Below, one piece after another: positions 1,670-16,705 of a DNA stretch of 22,813 bases (the stretch's first letter is position 1; each line of letters opens with the position of its first letter). Source of the DNA: a virus. The stretch covers positions 1-22,813 of IMG/VR virus record IMGVR_UViG_3300049214_000126. One strand, given 5' to 3'. The position numbers and the translations under genes were made by a program. Below the pieces are notes generated by a model, which worked only from the letters and a program-made list of their open reading frames with translations, ran no database searches and was not told where the DNA came from.

Positions 1670-1987
1670 TCACTTCGCCACCTTCAACTTCGACTTCAAC
1701 TTCGACTTTGCCTTCCGCTGCTCTAGTGCTTTATCCGACGCAATCAGTTCCTCTAGCGCATCCGCCGCTGCCCTGGACGCTGGCGTATTTGCGGTTACAA
1801 CTGTCACAAGCAACTCAGACACCAAACCAGATATTCCCCCAAACATAGACGCAAAGCCCAGCATCGCGTTGTCTACGCAAACACTTTCCGCGTTGTACAG
1901 AGCGTAAAGTAAATTTATAATCGCTTGTACTTCCTCGTCGCTCAAAGCGTCGCCAGGAGCAGCAAGTTCCGGTTTTCTGAATGTCAC
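1670..1987 (-). CDS. small hypothetical protein, last gene of the leftward operon
   Basis: The protein has 105 residues, with a hydrophobic, glycine-containing middle (about 42-70, including MLGFASMFGGISGLVSELLV), a helix rich in Ala and Glu, and a strongly basic tail with repeated KSKLK units ending KLKVAK. It starts with GTG at 1987, overlapping the TGA of the primase-helicase gene (GTGA), so translation is probably coupled. Its last six residues equal the last six of the primase-helicase, and the DNA there is a 23-bp repeat. The hydrophobic stretch might contact a membrane, but it contains charged and polar residues and a membrane segment is not certain. No family was recognised. Confidence 0.7.
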   Translation of the reverse strand: MTFRKPELAAPGDALSDEEVQAIINLLYALYNAESVCVDNAMLGFASMFGGISGLVSELLVTVVTANTPASRAAADALEELIASDKALEQRKAKSKLKSKLKVAK

Positions 1988-2006
1988 TTTGCCACCTTCA
2001 ACTTCG
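1670..2006. repeat. pair of 23-bp direct repeats at two adjacent gene ends
   Basis: Positions 1670-1692 and 1984-2006 are the same except for one base (C/T at the seventh position). Each copy encodes the C-terminal KLKVAK plus stop of a leftward gene: the 105-residue protein and the primase-helicase. The distance between copies equals the length of the intervening gene, as expected if that gene was inserted or arose by a duplication at the 3' end. Confidence 0.85.
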
Positions 2007-4827
2007 GTTCCGGCGGCATCATGGCCACAATATTGCCCTCGACCACGCCCGCCACGACAGGATTAAGCCCGTCGAAAATATAAACCCGCGCAAACGCGAC
2101 CTGAAGCTCCCGCACGCCCGCCGAAAGCGTCATCATTTTCTCGCCCTGCAAAACCTTGTCGGTTTTGAATTTGTGCAAAACGCTGCGCTTGTCGAACTTC
2201 TTTTCAAGCAGCCACGAATCGAAGAACGATTTGTCGATGTAAATGCGATTGCTATCGCGCTCAACCCGCGCATACAACTTGCCGCGCGGGAGCAGAATAG
2301 GCACTTGATAGAACCGATCCCTGTTCTGCCATTTCTCGGGCACGACCAGAATCTTGTCCTGGTTCTCGGCCAAAAACCGTCCCAGCGGGTTCGTATTCGC
2401 CTTGAGCGACCTGCGCTCCGCTGCTGCCTCGCTGACTTGGCTGATCGCAAACTGCATGTATCTGTCCGGTGTGAACTGGAAGAAATTCAGCCCTTGCGCA
2501 ATCCGCATGGTAATATCGAGTGCGGCCAACGTGCGAATCTGATAGCGACACTCCGGACCTAATCCGGGCAGGGATTGATACTCCTTGATTTTTGCGTCAA
2601 GCGCCGCCTGCACGAAAGGCAGCCTCTGCACCACCGCCGCGATAAACTCGCGTCCGATCCAGCCGCAGTTTTGTCGGCACTCGCGCACCACTGCCAGCAT
2701 TTCGCTCTGAGAGTAGATCGAGGGCGTGACGGCATACTCAAACACCCTGGCCGCTGCCGCGTCCTCGCTGCCGCCTTTCGCCAGCCCCAACCTGTCGCGC
2801 AAGGACAGGTTGCCGCTGGTCAGGATCAGATTGTTCCAAGTATTTTCTATCTGCATCAGCGACCCGTCGCGCTGCGAACGGCGCTTCTCTCGCCCGAGCG
2901 TGAAATCCATCACAACCCGTTCGGCAATATCCGGGTCCTGAAGGGTAAATTCATCCCAATAAATCGGGAGGTTGCCGGCCTGCGCCACAAAGCGGTTGCG
3001 CGCGTTCTCGGTGTCGCTACTGACTACTGTAAAAGCTTGCTCGCTTCCCCACTGCGACAAAGCGACCCAGGCTGCGAAACTCTTGCCTGTGGCGGTGTCG
3101 GGACTGTATCCGTGGCACAGAACCGCACCGTCCCCGCCCGTGAGGCAAATGAGTGGGGCTGCGAGCGCCAGCATGATCGTGAGCATGTGCGGCTCCATGC
3201 CAGGCGCCACAAACTTGTGCGCGGCCTTCACCCAGGCTTCGCGTGTGCCTTTCGGCTGCATCAGCGCGGCGCGATTGCGTAGGTTCTCGGCCAGTGCGGC
3301 AAGCCTTTGCGACCCGTCGGCGAAGTATTCGGTTTCCGCGAGCACGAAAGACGTAACCAAATCGGGGCTACTGAACCCTGCCGGCTTAAAACCGAATTGG
3401 TCATACAAAGATGTGTATCCTTGCGGTTCCAAGTGGTTTTGCGCCGATGCGATGTAAACAGCCATGGCTCGCCAGTTACTTTCAGGAAAGGCCGGGATAA
3501 AGCGGGCGAAGGCTCCGCGCGCCTCGCGGCTGGCCAGCACGTGGTTCGGTATCTGAAATTCTTCCCATCCCTTGGTCGCCTTGTGGCGAAAAACCGAGCC
3601 TAAGCCGTGGCCTAATTCGCTCTTGGTCATGCGCGCAAGATAAAGTGGACGGGTGTAGATCGGCGCGATTTTCGCGTCCTCCCCTTCGCTTTCCAGGTAG
3701 TAAACCCCCCTGTCGTCCGTCTTGAAAGGCCAGGGGGCTTTTGGTATATCGCTCGGCGGTTCGCCGGGCTGAACCCTCGGCGCGCTCCCAGCTTGGCCAG
3801 TCGCAGCCGCGCGGCCGAGCTGCACCGGGCTTGTGATCCTGCCTTTGTGCGGGCATCCCTCGCACCCCTGCGGCCAGTGTTTCTCCAACGTGGCACAGGT
3901 CGTGCCGCCCGTTGTTTTTGCGCGCACCCGATCGAGCTTCTCTGCTGTCTCTGCCTCGGTGTACGTTTCGTGGGCAGATGACCATTCTTGCGCCAGCGCA
4001 TCGCCATCCTCGCACCAAGCGAGCACACCTATCAGCGGATACCAGCACCCGGAGCGCGCCTGCTTGTTGTCGCGCATGTCCGCAAGCTGGAGGCAGTGTT
4101 GCGCCGCCAGGGCGGCACTCGCCGGCGGTGCCGCGCCGTGCATATCGCCCAAAAAACCCCCCGCCGGCCGGGTCGGGCGAGACAAACCGGCGGGGGGCGG
4201 CGAAAGCGTGCTGCGAGCCGCTCCGGCGAGCGCGGCGAGCACAGCTTTCGTTTCGTTGAGGCGAATGTCGCCCCACAACTCGACCGGCTTCGGCTCGGCC
4301 TTGCGGTTGAACGTGCCGGGATACCGCAGTATCCGCACCAAATCGGTCGTGACCGCGTGATCCAGCGCGAGACCAGCCGAGCGGCAGTGCTCGCTCAAAA
4401 CCGTCGCCGCCGGCAACCATACGGCGGGAGGAATGGCTTCGTCTAGCACGATGTAGCAGTGCAGTCCGTTGCCGCTGTTCACCCACGTAGGTAACACGCC
4501 GAGACTGCTGACCAGAGACGCGACGGCCCTTGCTGCTTCCGCCTGGCTCGCATAGGCCCCGGGCTTTACGTCCGCATCGAGGCGGAAGGTTTTCAGCGAG
4601 TGAACCAGCTCTCCAAGTCTGCGGCGGCCTGTTAGACTTGCTGTACAAAAGTAGACATCCTCGCCAGTAGCGTCGATACTTTGAAGGTCGGTCACTAACG
4701 AAAAGTTATCACTATAAAAACGGTGCGAAGGCTTTCCGACCTTGTGTTTTATCATCAGGCACCGGAGTCCTTGCTCCGGTAAAACGGCGTCAGCGAACCG
4801 GGTCGTATAGAAACTCGTTTCGGACAA
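1984..4827 (-). CDS. phage primase-helicase (AEP-like primase fused to DUF927-like ATPase)
   Basis: The protein has 947 residues. The N-terminal half matches phage archaeo-eukaryotic-type primases: FADAVLPEQGLRCLMI (11-26), the acidic DAD (84-86), SGNGLHCYIVL (118-128) and LRYPGTFNRK (167-176). A cysteine cluster follows (C311, C322, C325), a likely zinc site. The C-terminal half is a DUF927-type helicase with a P-loop in HGYSPDTATGKS (572-583) and Walker B PIYWDEF (621-627). The protein should prime and unwind DNA at the phage fork. The start is TTG at 4827: AAAGGAAG lies 9 nt upstream, and the N-terminal residues it adds are conserved-looking, so the later ATG at 4755 is less likely. It overlaps the upstream HTH gene by 38 nt. 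Confidence 0.88.
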   Translation of the reverse strand: MSETSFYTTRFADAVLPEQGLRCLMIKHKVGKPSHRFYSDNFSLVTDLQSIDATGEDVYFCTASLTGRRRLGELVHSLKTFRLDADVKPGAYASQAEAARAVASLVSSLGVLPTWVNSGNGLHCYIVLDEAIPPAVWLPAATVLSEHCRSAGLALDHAVTTDLVRILRYPGTFNRKAEPKPVELWGDIRLNETKAVLAALAGAARSTLSPPPAGLSRPTRPAGGFLGDMHGAAPPASAALAAQHCLQLADMRDNKQARSGCWYPLIGVLAWCEDGDALAQEWSSAHETYTEAETAEKLDRVRAKTTGGTTCATLEKHWPQGCEGCPHKGRITSPVQLGRAAATGQAGSAPRVQPGEPPSDIPKAPWPFKTDDRGVYYLESEGEDAKIAPIYTRPLYLARMTKSELGHGLGSVFRHKATKGWEEFQIPNHVLASREARGAFARFIPAFPESNWRAMAVYIASAQNHLEPQGYTSLYDQFGFKPAGFSSPDLVTSFVLAETEYFADGSQRLAALAENLRNRAALMQPKGTREAWVKAAHKFVAPGMEPHMLTIMLALAAPLICLTGGDGAVLCHGYSPDTATGKSFAAWVALSQWGSEQAFTVVSSDTENARNRFVAQAGNLPIYWDEFTLQDPDIAERVVMDFTLGREKRRSQRDGSLMQIENTWNNLILTSGNLSLRDRLGLAKGGSEDAAAARVFEYAVTPSIYSQSEMLAVVRECRQNCGWIGREFIAAVVQRLPFVQAALDAKIKEYQSLPGLGPECRYQIRTLAALDITMRIAQGLNFFQFTPDRYMQFAISQVSEAAAERRSLKANTNPLGRFLAENQDKILVVPEKWQNRDRFYQVPILLPRGKLYARVERDSNRIYIDKSFFDSWLLEKKFDKRSVLHKFKTDKVLQGEKMMTLSAGVRELQVAFARVYIFDGLNPVVAGVVEGNIVAMMPPEPKLKVAK

Positions 4828-5098
4828 GACGCAGCGCTTCCTTTATCTCGTTAATCGGCAAACTTTGGTCAACAGGAAGCCTTTGCTGCGCAACAGCTTT
4901 GTGGATACGAGCGAGTTTATTTTCGATACTTTGCCGGCGCTCAATCGCCTGCCGCCGGCGCGGTAAAAAGTCGAGGTCGGACAACCATCGTTGCAGCGTC
5001 GGCAGCGGCAGGTCAAGCAGAACCGCGAGATCGGCCGGGCGGCACCCAGCCGCCCGCATCGCGTCCTTCAGTCGATCGGCAAAAAGTGGCTCAGTCAC
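4790..5098 (-). CDS. small helix-turn-helix protein
   Basis: The protein has 102 residues. Residues 3-40 (FADRLKDAMRAAGCRPADLA, then VLLDLPLPTLQRWLSDLDFL) read as a Cro/XRE-like helix-turn-helix, and the rest is a basic helix. It starts with GTG at 5098, overlapping the TGA of the preceding gene (GTGA), and its 3' end overlaps the primase-helicase by 38 nt. It may be a DNA-binding accessory of replication or a regulator; the sequence does not decide. HTH assignment moderate, role unknown. Confidence 0.7.
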   Translation of the reverse strand: MTEPLFADRLKDAMRAAGCRPADLAVLLDLPLPTLQRWLSDLDFLPRRRQAIERRQSIENKLARIHKAVAQQRLPVDQSLPINEIKEALRLVRNEFLYDPVR

Positions 5099-13768: not shown

Positions 13769-14301
13769 AGCGCGTGATCTATCTGCCAGCCGGCAAAAAA
13801 CGCGGCGGCGCGCGCTTTGTCATAGGCGTCCAGAGAGGTGCTGCACGCTTTGTAATAGGCGTCCCGAGCGGTGGGGCGCGCTTTGTAATAGGCGTCCAGA
13901 GCGGCGGCGCACGCATTGTCATAGGCGTCGCGAGCGATGATGCACGCTTCCTTGTGGGCTTCGCGAGCGGGGGAGCACGCTTCGTAATAGGCGTCGCGAG
14001 CGGCGGCGCACGCTTTGTCATAGGCGTCGCGAGCGGCGGCGCACGCATTGTCATAGGCGTCGCGAGCGATGATGCACGCTTCCTTGTGGGCTTCGCAAGC
14101 GGGGAAGCACGCTTTGTAATAGGCGTCGCGAGCGTTGGCGCTGAGTAAATTACGCGCAGCCCAGTAAAAGTCGAATTCATTGGCGTGCGCTACGCAAAGG
14201 GGTTCGGTCAAAACTACACCGGCCGGGAATAAAGCGCGGAATTTATCCGCTTGGTCGGCGCAAGCGTTTTTCGCCCGCAACATTTCGTAAGTAAGTAACA
14301 T
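13765..14301 (-). CDS. hendecad-repeat helical protein
   Basis: The protein has 178 residues. Residues 55-164 are ten tandem 11-residue units of the type A-A-R-D-A-Y-x-K-A-C, most ending in Cys. Small or aromatic residues fall at spacings 3-1-3-1, the a-d-e-h pattern of a right-handed hendecad coiled coil, with Arg/Asp and Asp/Lys pairs. It is therefore likely a long rod or tetramer, with rows of Cys. The N-terminus (1-54) is non-repeated and the end is AFFAGWQIDHAL. The ATG at 14301 has AGGAGG 6 nt upstream. Frames on the opposite strand are shadows caused by the repeats. The function is unknown; a scaffold or packing role is possible. Confidence 0.75.
   Translation of the reverse strand: MLLTYEMLRAKNACADQADKFRALFPAGVVLTEPLCVAHANEFDFYWAARNLLSANARDAYYKACFPACEAHKEACIIARDAYDNACAAARDAYDKACAAARDAYYEACSPAREAHKEACIIARDAYDNACAAALDAYYKARPTARDAYYKACSTSLDAYDKARAAAFFAGWQIDHAL
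13810..14139. repeat. ten 33-bp tandem repeats encoding 11-residue units
   Basis: The units are 33 bp each in the hendecad gene, with conserved GCGTCGCGAGC-like cores. A block of four units (132 bp) is nearly duplicated: bases around 13901-14002 match those around 14033-14134 with only a few differences, so a recent duplication is likely. Confidence 0.85.
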
Positions 14302-14374: not shown

Positions 14375-14405
14375 GGTTTATTCAAGCTGCGATCGCCTGC
14401 CTCCG

Positions 14406-14425
14406 CACCGCTTTAGAGAGCGGTG
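14406..14425. other. perfect 7-bp hairpin over the stop codon
   Basis: CACCGCT (14406-14412) and AGCGGTG (14419-14425) flank a 6-nt loop that contains the stop codon of the shorter hendecad gene. It lacks a U-run in the leftward direction. It may protect an mRNA end or be a chance product of the repeat-rich DNA. Confidence 0.4.
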
Positions 14426-14661
14426 GCGCGCGCTTGCTTGTAGGATTCCCGAGCGATGGCGCGCGCTTGCTTGTAGGCTTCCCCAGCGGCGGCGCATTCT
14501 TGCTCGAAGGCTTCCCAAGCGATGGCGCGCGCTTGCTCGTAGGCTTCCCAAGCAATGGCGAGCGCTTGGTTGCGGGCGTCCCGAGCGTTGGCGCGCGCTT
14601 TGCTATAGGCGTCGCGAGCAGCGGCATCCGTTACTGTCTGGTAGATATCTGACTTTTCCAT
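14413..14661 (-). CDS. second, shorter hendecad-repeat protein
   Basis: The protein has 82 residues. Residues 13-78 are six tandem 11-residue units such as AIAWEAYEQAR and AAAGEAYKQAR, of the same pattern as in the following gene but with Trp and Gln more often and Cys only once. It is probably a helical oligomer. It starts with ATG at 14661 beside AGGATC and ends at TAA 14413-14415. Its sequence relation to the next gene points to a shared origin by duplication. The function is unknown. Confidence 0.7.
   Translation of the reverse strand: MEKSDIYQTVTDAAARDAYSKARANARDARNQALAIAWEAYEQARAIAWEAFEQECAAAGEAYKQARAIARESYKQARATAL
14428..14625. repeat. six 33-bp tandem repeats encoding 11-residue units
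   Basis: Six imperfect 33-bp units make up the body of the shorter hendecad gene. They share the period, but not the exact sequence, with the repeats at 13810-14139. Confidence 0.8.
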
Positions 14662-15221: not shown

Positions 15222-15389
15222 TTACGCCCCCTTTACGGAGGCGTAAGCGGGAAGATCGGCGAGAGCGCTTGCTTTGTAGTAGTCGCCGCCGGAAGACACG
15301 GTAGAGTCTTCACCGGTAGCGCGGTACGCGCGGACGGCTTCGAACGCGAGAAGTTCTTGTTCGGCGGTTTCGAAGATAAAGGTTGGCAT
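15222..15389 (-). CDS. 55-residue hypothetical protein
   Basis: The minus strand upstream of the 100-residue gene holds a 55-residue frame starting MPTFIFETAEQELLAFEAVR and ending AYASVKGA. The ATG at 15389 has TAGGAGC about 7 nt upstream, and the TAA lies three bases before the next ATG. The N-terminal FIFETAEQELLAFEAV looks like a strand followed by a helix. The function is unknown. Confidence 0.75.
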   Translation of the reverse strand: MPTFIFETAEQELLAFEAVRAYRATGEDSTVSSGGDYYKASALADLPAYASVKGA

Positions 15390-15462: not shown

Positions 15463-15897
15463 TTATGCCGGATATTTTTCGGGGGTTGGGTAGTTGTAAT
15501 AGGACATGGCTTGGCGCCACCTATTGCGAACGTCCGCCATATCGAAGGGCTGCGTGAAGCCAGGCGTTGGAGCGGACATATCCTGGATATCCTTGACGCA
15601 GATCGCCCATAGCTCGTCGGGCGTAGGGCGAGGCTTCGCGCCTTTCTTTGCGGGCGCGGGCTTGGCTGGTGCTGCCTTGGCCAGGGAGGGTAGCGCCGCC
15701 TGGCGCTGTACCCACGCTAGGGCGGCCGGCACGGCGCACAGCAGATCGACCAGGCGACCGGCCGCGGGATTTATCTCTGCCGCTCCGCCCGCCACCCAGC
15801 TCTCACTGGTGCGGCGGTTCACGGCGAGATACCGGGCCGCATCGCTATGCGACCAGCCTGCGTTCGCCAGGAAAACTTTATACTCATGCCCGTTCAT
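15463..15897 (-). CDS. HTH DNA-binding protein, first gene of the leftward operon
   Basis: The protein has 144 residues. Residues 4-54 (EYKVFLANAGWSHSDAARYL, then AVNRRTSESWVAGGAAEI) read as a helix-turn-helix of the Cro/XRE kind. An Ala/Pro/Lys-rich linker follows (about 72-92), then a C-terminal helical part (DELWAICVKDIQDMS). It starts with ATG at 15897 with AGGAG 7 nt upstream, and that ribosome site touches the outer end of the 38-bp inverted repeat. Position and motif make it the likely regulator that binds that repeat. It could instead be an origin-binding protein. A 73-bp gap with no clear promoter separates it from the next gene. Confidence 0.8.
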   Translation of the reverse strand: MNGHEYKVFLANAGWSHSDAARYLAVNRRTSESWVAGGAAEINPAAGRLVDLLCAVPAALAWVQRQAALPSLAKAAPAKPAPAKKGAKPRPTPDELWAICVKDIQDMSAPTPGFTQPFDMADVRNRWRQAMSYYNYPTPEKYPA

Positions 15898-15905
15898 GTC
15901 GCGCT

Positions 15906-15997
15906 CCTACGATCTGCCAGTGTCCCCCTACGATTGACCAGTGTTAAATTAAAGAATCGCACTGGTCAATCGTAGGGGGACACTGGCAGATCGTAGG
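15906..15997. promoter_or_regulatory. perfect 38-bp inverted repeat with four operator-like 16-mers
   Basis: Positions 15906-15943 are the exact reverse complement of 15960-15997, around a 16-bp AT-rich centre (15944-15959). Each arm carries two direct 16-bp sites, CTACGATCTGCCAGTG and CTACGATTGACCAGTG, 21 bp apart (two helical turns), so four sites point head to head. The layout fits a multi-site operator or an iteron-type origin. If transcribed right through, it would form a very stable RNA hairpin reaching the ribosome site of the HTH gene. Confidence 0.85.
15941..15969 (-). promoter_or_regulatory. possible leftward promoter inside the inverted repeat
   Basis: On the minus strand TTGACC (15964-15969) is followed, 17 bp on, by TAACAC (15941-15946). 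The -35 box is good but the -10 box matches only half of TATAAT. It would start RNA near 15934, inside the left arm, so the transcript could not form the full hairpin and would leave the ribosome site of the HTH gene free. The -35 box overlaps one operator-like site. Confidence 0.3.
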
Positions 15998-16136
15998 TTT
16001 TCGCGGTGCGGGAGGCTTACGGGAGGGCTGGCAAAGGCTCGACGGCACCGCGCAAAAACTTCTAAGTGTTTGAAAAAATTAGATCGTTTCGGTTTGTTTC
16101 GTAGGAAAATAAGTAAGGCTACACGGAAAGCAGGGG

Positions 16137-16155
16137 TACACTGGATTCCAGTGTA
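16137..16155. promoter_or_regulatory. 19-bp perfect palindrome, probable operator
   Basis: TACACTGGATTCCAGTGTA has two 9-bp arms around one base. Its ACACTGG half-site also occurs in each arm of the inverted repeat at 15906-15997, so the same protein may bind both. Confidence 0.55.
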
Positions 16156-16352
16156 GTGCGAAAAGTTGTGTGGTGTATCATTATTTAGATTTGTTACTAA
16201 CTATAAGAATAACTTCTTGGTCAATACCTTAGCTCGCTAGCGGAAAAGAACTTCCACCAAGTAAATCCGAATCAATGACTTGGAAAATCCCGTGGCCTCC
16301 AACGCATACCATAGCACACGATACGACTAACGCGATCTGTTAATCTAACTAA

Positions 16353-16449
16353 CAAAACGTTAGGCGAATTTCTAACCTATTGATATTGCTGGTCTAGCAA
16401 TGCCGCATAAGATCCATTATGCCAACTCGACACTAGGTCGAGGGTTTTG
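16353..16449. other. array of four hairpins closed by an outer helix, possible structured RNA or origin
   Basis: CAAAAC (16353-16358) can pair with GTTTTG (16444-16449). Between them lie GTTAG/CTAAC (16359-16363 with 16372-16376), ATTGCT/AGCAAT (16385-16390 with 16396-16401), GCATAA/TTATGC (16405-16410 with 16417-16422) and CTCGAC/GTCGAG (16426-16431 with 16437-16442). The last three have loops of 5 or 6 nt and exactly 3 nt between them. The stems differ in sequence but share the geometry. It resembles a multibranched RNA fold, but it lacks the T-loop and anticodon features of a tRNA. The strand is undetermined. Confidence 0.4.
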
Positions 16450-16456
16450 AGACGGC

Positions 16457-16502
16457 GTTGGCGGCCTGGCTCGGCGGGTCGATGGGGCGCGGGCCGGCCA
16501 AC
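16457..16502. other. GC-rich bulged hairpin
   Basis: GTTGGCGGCC (16457-16466) pairs with positions 16492-16502 through ten base pairs and one bulged G, with a 25-nt loop. It follows the hairpin array directly and could belong to the same structured element. Confidence 0.35.
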
Positions 16503-16705
16503 TCGGGATTTGCCGCGGGCGCGCAGGAGGGTCATTAAAATCTAATTCACCCCCTCCAATTCCGCGCTCTATTTCAGTTTTAGGCTTTTTCCCGCCTAGG
16601 CGCTGCGCCCAATTTCAGTTTCGGCCTATCTCGCACCGCCGAACACCTTGTTTCCGCCAGTCCAGACCCCTTCCCAGCCCGATAGAAAAATGCTTTGGTA
16701 AGCAG

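Follow-up and report, generated by a model that had tools for sequence, protein, structure and literature searches.

A perfect 38-bp inverted repeat, 92 bases in total, was found just upstream of a gene for a small DNA-binding (HTH) protein, and it was read, with a probability of roughly 0.55, as an autoregulatory operator composed of asymmetric, helically phased sites for this adjacent XRE-like HTH protein. The window, that is, the whole stretch of 22,813 bp that was analysed, comprises an entire IMG/VR virus record, is probably a genome fragment, and belongs to a lineage of unclassified tailed phages. The leftward block consisted of replication genes, namely primase-helicase (1984-4827), a small HTH-like protein, SNF2 helicase, exonuclease, DNA polymerase A, and sliding clamp, while the rightward block began with the large terminase (terL) followed by the portal. 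The small HTH-like protein of this block, which had a weak XRE-like match, was encoded on the minus strand (4790-5098), and its gene overlapped the beginning of that for the primase-helicase. A control region of about 800 bp (15898-16705) extended without coding sequence from the leftward operon to the first rightward ORF. The repeat had been placed between divergent operons by the first-pass annotation; divergent blocks do flank the region, although the repeat occupies its left end, with the first rightward ORF about 700 bp away. AT-rich segments were present beyond the repeat at 16050-16100 and 16150-16250.

The two arms were complementary at 38 of 38 positions, at exactly the coordinates first described. 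The left arm (15906-15943, plus strand) contained site 1 (15906-15922), the linker TCCC, and site 2 (15927-15943), and the right arm (15960-15997, minus strand) was its exact mirror with site 2' (15960-15976), the linker, and site 1' (15981-15997). The centre between them, TTAAATTAAAGAATCG (15944-15959), was confirmed as an AT-rich loop of 16 bp, with A or T at 13 positions. Each arm had been described as holding two direct 16-bp sites spaced by 21 bp; the spacing could be retained (starts at 15906 and 15927, repeated in each arm), whereas the sites were better defined as 17 bp, CCTACGATCTGCCAGTG for site 1 and CCTACGATTGACCAGTG for site 2, separated by the 4-bp linker. Site 1 could be divided into CCTACGAT-CTG-CCAGTG and site 2 into CCTACGAT-TGA-CCAGTG, so that 14 of 17 positions were identical and all three differences fell within the spacer. 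The half-sites CCTACGAT and CCAGTG started at 15906, 15917, 15927, and 15938, in steps of 11, 10, and 11 bp, and this periodicity places all of them on one helical face. The repeat adjoined the HTH gene as previously noted, with a gap to the ATG of 8 bases (15898-15905) rather than 9. The pentamer TCGCG preceded the repeat at a distance of 2 bp (15899-15903) and followed it at 3 bp (16001-16005); this pair faintly resembles a target duplication and probably occurs by chance.

The element is real and statistically extreme. The expectation for a perfect 38-bp inverted repeat with a loop of up to 100 was approximately 1e-16. Within a yardstick of about 404 kb including the window (loop of up to 30), no other perfect inverted repeat exceeded 14-bp arms, a length reached in the approximately 381 kb of related phages. 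Allowing up to three mismatches, the 17-mer occurred four times in the window against 0.29 expected from shuffles, each time inside the repeat, and nothing comparable to the repeat was present elsewhere in the window. It is very improbable that the element has its source in a fold-back formed during assembly or amplification, or in a palindromic host repeat (REPIN or MITE-like) that was inserted. The origin from a single metagenomic record, the perfect arms, and the TCGCG on both flanks would agree with such a source. However, a fold-back would copy flanking DNA past the site borders and would not create the internal direct sites or the second dyad described below, and the arm pattern was absent from viral contigs and matched just once, no more than expected by chance, among 84,980 species genomes. 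A DNA similarity search against phages and plasmids likewise returned no match beyond chance. A REPIN or other dispersed host repeat was dismissed, as the many copies expected in bacterial genomes were not found, and an insertion element was unconvincing with the TCGCG flanks at unequal distances.

The gene next to the repeat (15463-15897, minus strand) encodes a protein of 144 amino acids, which is the proposed binder. In profile searches, the protein alone scored below every curated family cut-off. A permissive search matched it with regulators of Erwinia phages Stean, PEp14, and Pavtok, and with those of Klebsiella phages LASTA, SJM3, SopranoGao, and ZX1. The identity to these Pavtokvirus and Lastavirus "transcriptional regulators", which are encoded divergently between terL and terS, was about 29-40% across the N-terminal part, and the E-values were weak (0.01-0.1). 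The alignment of the protein with these regulators contained 17 invariant columns, including GWS, AA, L, V, R, T, and W of the HTH, the distant relatives matched Pfam HTH_3 and HTH_31, and the profile matched the solved transcriptional regulator 3vk0 (E = 2e-4). Based on these invariant columns and matches, the protein is likely a divergent XRE-like HTH protein. An AlphaFold model predicted from the single sequence was poor, with a mean pLDDT of 52. Searches with the protein in viral and genome contigs revealed nothing beyond chance.

The position of the repeat, which lies 8 bp away from the start of the HTH gene, supports the operator reading; a regulator gene adjoining its operator is the commonest arrangement in autoregulation. 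A role of the repeat as an operator or activator site for another protein, either a second phage regulator (such as the small protein of 4790-5098 or one encoded outside the fragment) or a host factor, would be unlikely. The record is a fragment that holds a second small HTH-like protein, and relatives with comparable dyads have a first leftward gene of a non-HTH kind; however, the HTH gene is 8 bp away, and no cluster of sites could be observed near 5098.

Putative expression signals of the leftward operon overlapped the repeat. The Shine-Dalgarno sequence of the HTH gene, AGGAG (15904-15908, minus strand), lies 6 nt before the ATG, and three of its bases form the outer end of the left arm. 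The sequence TAGGAGCG precedes the gene starting at 15389 just as it precedes the HTH gene. A weak leftward promoter-like match, TTGACC-18-AACACT (15940-15969, minus strand), was predicted inside the repeat; this was the top minus-strand score of the control region, which favours the operator reading, while several places in the window scored higher. A stricter promoter scan did not detect any promoter, this match being below its threshold. The leftward promoter may be located within the repeat, as the prediction suggests. A second perfect dyad, TACACTGGATTCCAGTGTA (16137-16155), carried the half-site CCAGTGT; besides the repeat, it alone among the palindromes of the window (gap of up to 5) reached arm lengths of at least 9. 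The heptamer CCAGTGT was found in seven copies in the window against 1.5 expected; five of the seven were in the control region, two of which formed the second dyad. This enrichment and reuse of the half-site argues for the operator reading, and the dyad is a possible auxiliary site. An extended likeness of 16127-16146 to the arm was not beyond that of shuffles and was discarded. An intrinsic terminator, defined as a short GC-rich stem followed by a T run, was also rejected, with none detected in the scan and a 38-bp stem that is situated at gene starts with just TTTT past the right arm.

The overlap with the Shine-Dalgarno sequence is also relevant to a possible function at the RNA level. Leftward transcripts initiated to the right of 15997 would contain a 38-bp hairpin, either masking the Shine-Dalgarno sequence of the HTH gene or serving as a substrate for RNase III, with the result that the regulator would be made only from transcripts starting inside the repeat. 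The minus strand of 15880-16010 was predicted to fold at -89.6 kcal/mol compared to -34 for shuffles, with the Shine-Dalgarno sequence at the stem base, and a transcript starting in the centre folded unremarkably. Pairing would also account for the mirrored spacer and linker. However, any perfect inverted repeat folds in this manner and the opposite strand folds equally well, the direct repeats within the arms and the half-site in the second dyad would need a separate reason, and no Rfam family was matched. An RNA function as the purpose of the repeat appears improbable. A dual element, acting in DNA as a four-site operator on the leftward promoter and in RNA as a 38-bp hairpin hiding the regulator Shine-Dalgarno sequence in read-in transcripts, would be very improbable; if true, the arms would be kept perfect by selection on both pairing and binding.

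The perfection of the arms had been attributed to gene conversion or strong selection. Although three spacer positions distinguish site 1 from site 2, each site equalled its mirror partner, and the linker was mirrored as well. This exact mirroring of the spacers CTG/TGA and of the linker TCCC indicates that an arm was copied as a unit or that the arms are held by pairing, as selection on four separate binding sites alone would not hold the spacer and linker. Templated correction of a quasi-palindrome is one route to a copied arm. The earlier proposal could thus be narrowed to unit copying, which would be recent, or to selection on pairing, and the data favour neither.

Of the relatives revealed by a search with terL, L005 was 90% identical, on a contig that stops within terL, and the other 24 were at about 30%. 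Searches with the HTH protein, sliding clamp, terL, arm patterns, and DNA similarity returned no relative spanning the repeat stretch; the sliding clamp gave nothing beyond chance in viral contigs, and the HTH protein was not found in eight records holding distant terL-relative loci. Genomes of 38-39 kb shared terL, portal, and the gene at 78-1403 with the window. In several of these relatives, the leftward genes were followed by a long and mostly non-coding stretch that preceded terL. L013, L018, and L020, together with near-identical kin, contained two to three small dyads of the ACACATTGTGT type immediately before the first leftward gene; in L018 a dyad at -908 was separated by about 20 bp from the ATG, located at -929. 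The occurrence of these dyads in the same region, upstream of the first leftward gene, supports the operator reading, and the first leftward gene in these dyad-bearing relatives is not an HTH gene. The repeat sequence itself was not conserved at the distance of these relatives, and the Pavtokvirus and Lastavirus regulators of the same distant family had no comparable repeat upstream of their genes.

The same non-coding stretch contained origin-type repeats. Four perfect DnaA boxes (TTATCCACA) were found on one strand at about -500 to -320 of terL in L013, L015, and L020, where this stretch is likely a replication origin, and L010 carried four iteron-like 22-bp direct repeats of the CATATCGACCAGTAGCGGGCCA type about 470-370 bp upstream of terL. 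A resemblance between the L010 iterons (ATCGACCAGTAG) and the arm (ATTGACCAGTG) was too short to count. The first-pass annotation had offered an origin with iterons as a second possibility, in which an initiator, for example the primase-helicase, would bind the four sites as iterons and open nearby AT-rich DNA. The DnaA boxes or 22-bp repeats of these relatives, the AT-rich segments that follow the repeat, and established origins between divergent operons, such as that of the PLE satellite (PMC7145576), are in agreement with an origin. However, the origin-type repeats of the relatives lie 300-500 bp from terL and not beside the start of a leftward gene, and no DnaA box (TTWTNCACA) was present in the 1.6 kb upstream of terL in the window. 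The four sites are moreover mirrored, as two direct repeats per arm, instead of arrayed, they overlap a ribosome-binding site, and no initiator gene adjoins the repeat. An origin is possible for the wider region, but no specific feature singles out the inverted repeat, for which a role as part of an origin is unlikely. With the dyads of the relatives at the first leftward gene and their origin-type repeats nearer terL, the repeat in the window occupies the dyad position.

Other features were recorded in the window and its relatives. A stretch of the TAAGAAAGTAAGAGGTATTAAGG kind, often after a CT-rich run, was present 600-900 bp upstream of terL in L013, L018, L020, L010, L025, and L029, and AAAATAAGTAAGGCTA at 16105-16120 of the window was weakly similar to it. 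The 38,284-bp record L030/L031 contained an exact terminal repeat of 65 bp and many related contigs ended 100-500 bp upstream of terL, which suggests that the genome ends at this place or that a repeat breaks the assemblies. In Pseudomonas phage KPP25, two non-coding gaps far from each other each preceded a gene block and contained an inverted repeat with the same arm, TGTTACGAAATT (26394-26432 in L046 and 26258-26296 in L047), which may represent a promoter or operator element common to both blocks. Tandem repeats of 33 bp (13769-14197 and 14387-14650; 13 register copies, 60-84% alike) encoded 11-residue repeats, for example CAAARDAYDKA, in leftward ORFs of the window. A Pfam colipase-like match at these repeats looked spurious, and L029 had a repeat-rich protein at a similar position.

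Among experimentally studied systems, the nearest parallel found was the C repressor of P2, which recognises a pair of direct repeats of 8 bp, spaced by 22 bp and surrounding a -10 region (PMC4752584). Operators of this type were defined by same-orientation sites about 20-22 bp apart, overlap with or flanking of the -10/-35 elements, and cooperative binding by the own HTH repressor. As with P2 C (O1/O2), a small HTH regulator is accompanied here by asymmetric sites that share one orientation, are spaced by about two helical turns, and lie near a putative promoter. The 21-bp repeat of each arm agrees with this spacing, and the closeness to the 22-bp P2 C operator, along with the half-site phasing of 10-11 bp, favours the operator reading, while the weak promoter-like match alone overlaps the sites. 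The likeness concerns the site layout and not the protein sequences, and the HTH protein is a putative binder here. Whereas P2 has one pair of 8-bp direct repeats, two pairs are mirrored here as perfect 38-bp arms. Asymmetric operators have also been reported for P1/P7 (C1) and mycobacteriophages L1/L5 (PMC1934351), which similarly have non-palindromic sites in several copies; those are scattered genome-wide, unlike the four copies confined here to one element, with none elsewhere in 22.8 kb. The arrangement resembles lambda-type operators in that a site cluster lies beside a regulator gene and between divergent gene blocks. However, lambda sites are each pseudo-palindromic, while the 17-bp sites are not; CCTACGATTGACCAGTG is not self-complementary, and symmetry was seen only in the arm pair and in the dyad at 16137-16155. 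Similar to the iteron origin of PLE, repeats with inverted symmetry occupy a non-coding stretch between divergent operons, but here there is no adjacent initiator gene and no one-directional array, and the repeat overlaps a ribosome-binding site.

The autoregulatory operator of the first-pass annotation is thus the preferred reading, favoured by the position, the XRE-like neighbour, the promoter-like and Shine-Dalgarno overlap, the half-site reuse, and the dyads of the relatives, with the binding itself presumed. The asymmetric sites, arranged along one helical face as two pairs with the AT-rich centre between them, would be occupied by subunits of the HTH protein. The bound protein would lie over the leftward promoter as well as the start of translation of its own gene, and would thereby act in repression rather than activation; as it accumulates, the HTH gene and the leftward operon would be shut off, and the dyad at 16137-16155 may serve as an auxiliary site. 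Against this stand the scores of the HTH protein alone, which are under family cut-offs, the weak promoter match, the Pavtokvirus and Lastavirus regulators without such a repeat, the dyads of relatives that adjoin a non-HTH gene, and the mirrored spacer and linker, which site-by-site binding does not explain. The element is striking in form and probably ordinary in function; most probably it is an operator, of a known kind but with an unusually perfect mirrored form.

If the HTH protein binds the repeat, it would be a candidate regulatory switch for this unclassified tailed-phage lineage, and the base-exact mirrored pairs of direct repeats would be useful for studies of small HTH proteins and asymmetric sites. 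The mirrored, neutral-looking spacer and linker bases pose a clean question of templated arm copying versus selection on pairing. In the comparison, the non-coding DNA ahead of terL moreover emerges as a control region shared within this group of phages, and likely as an origin region.
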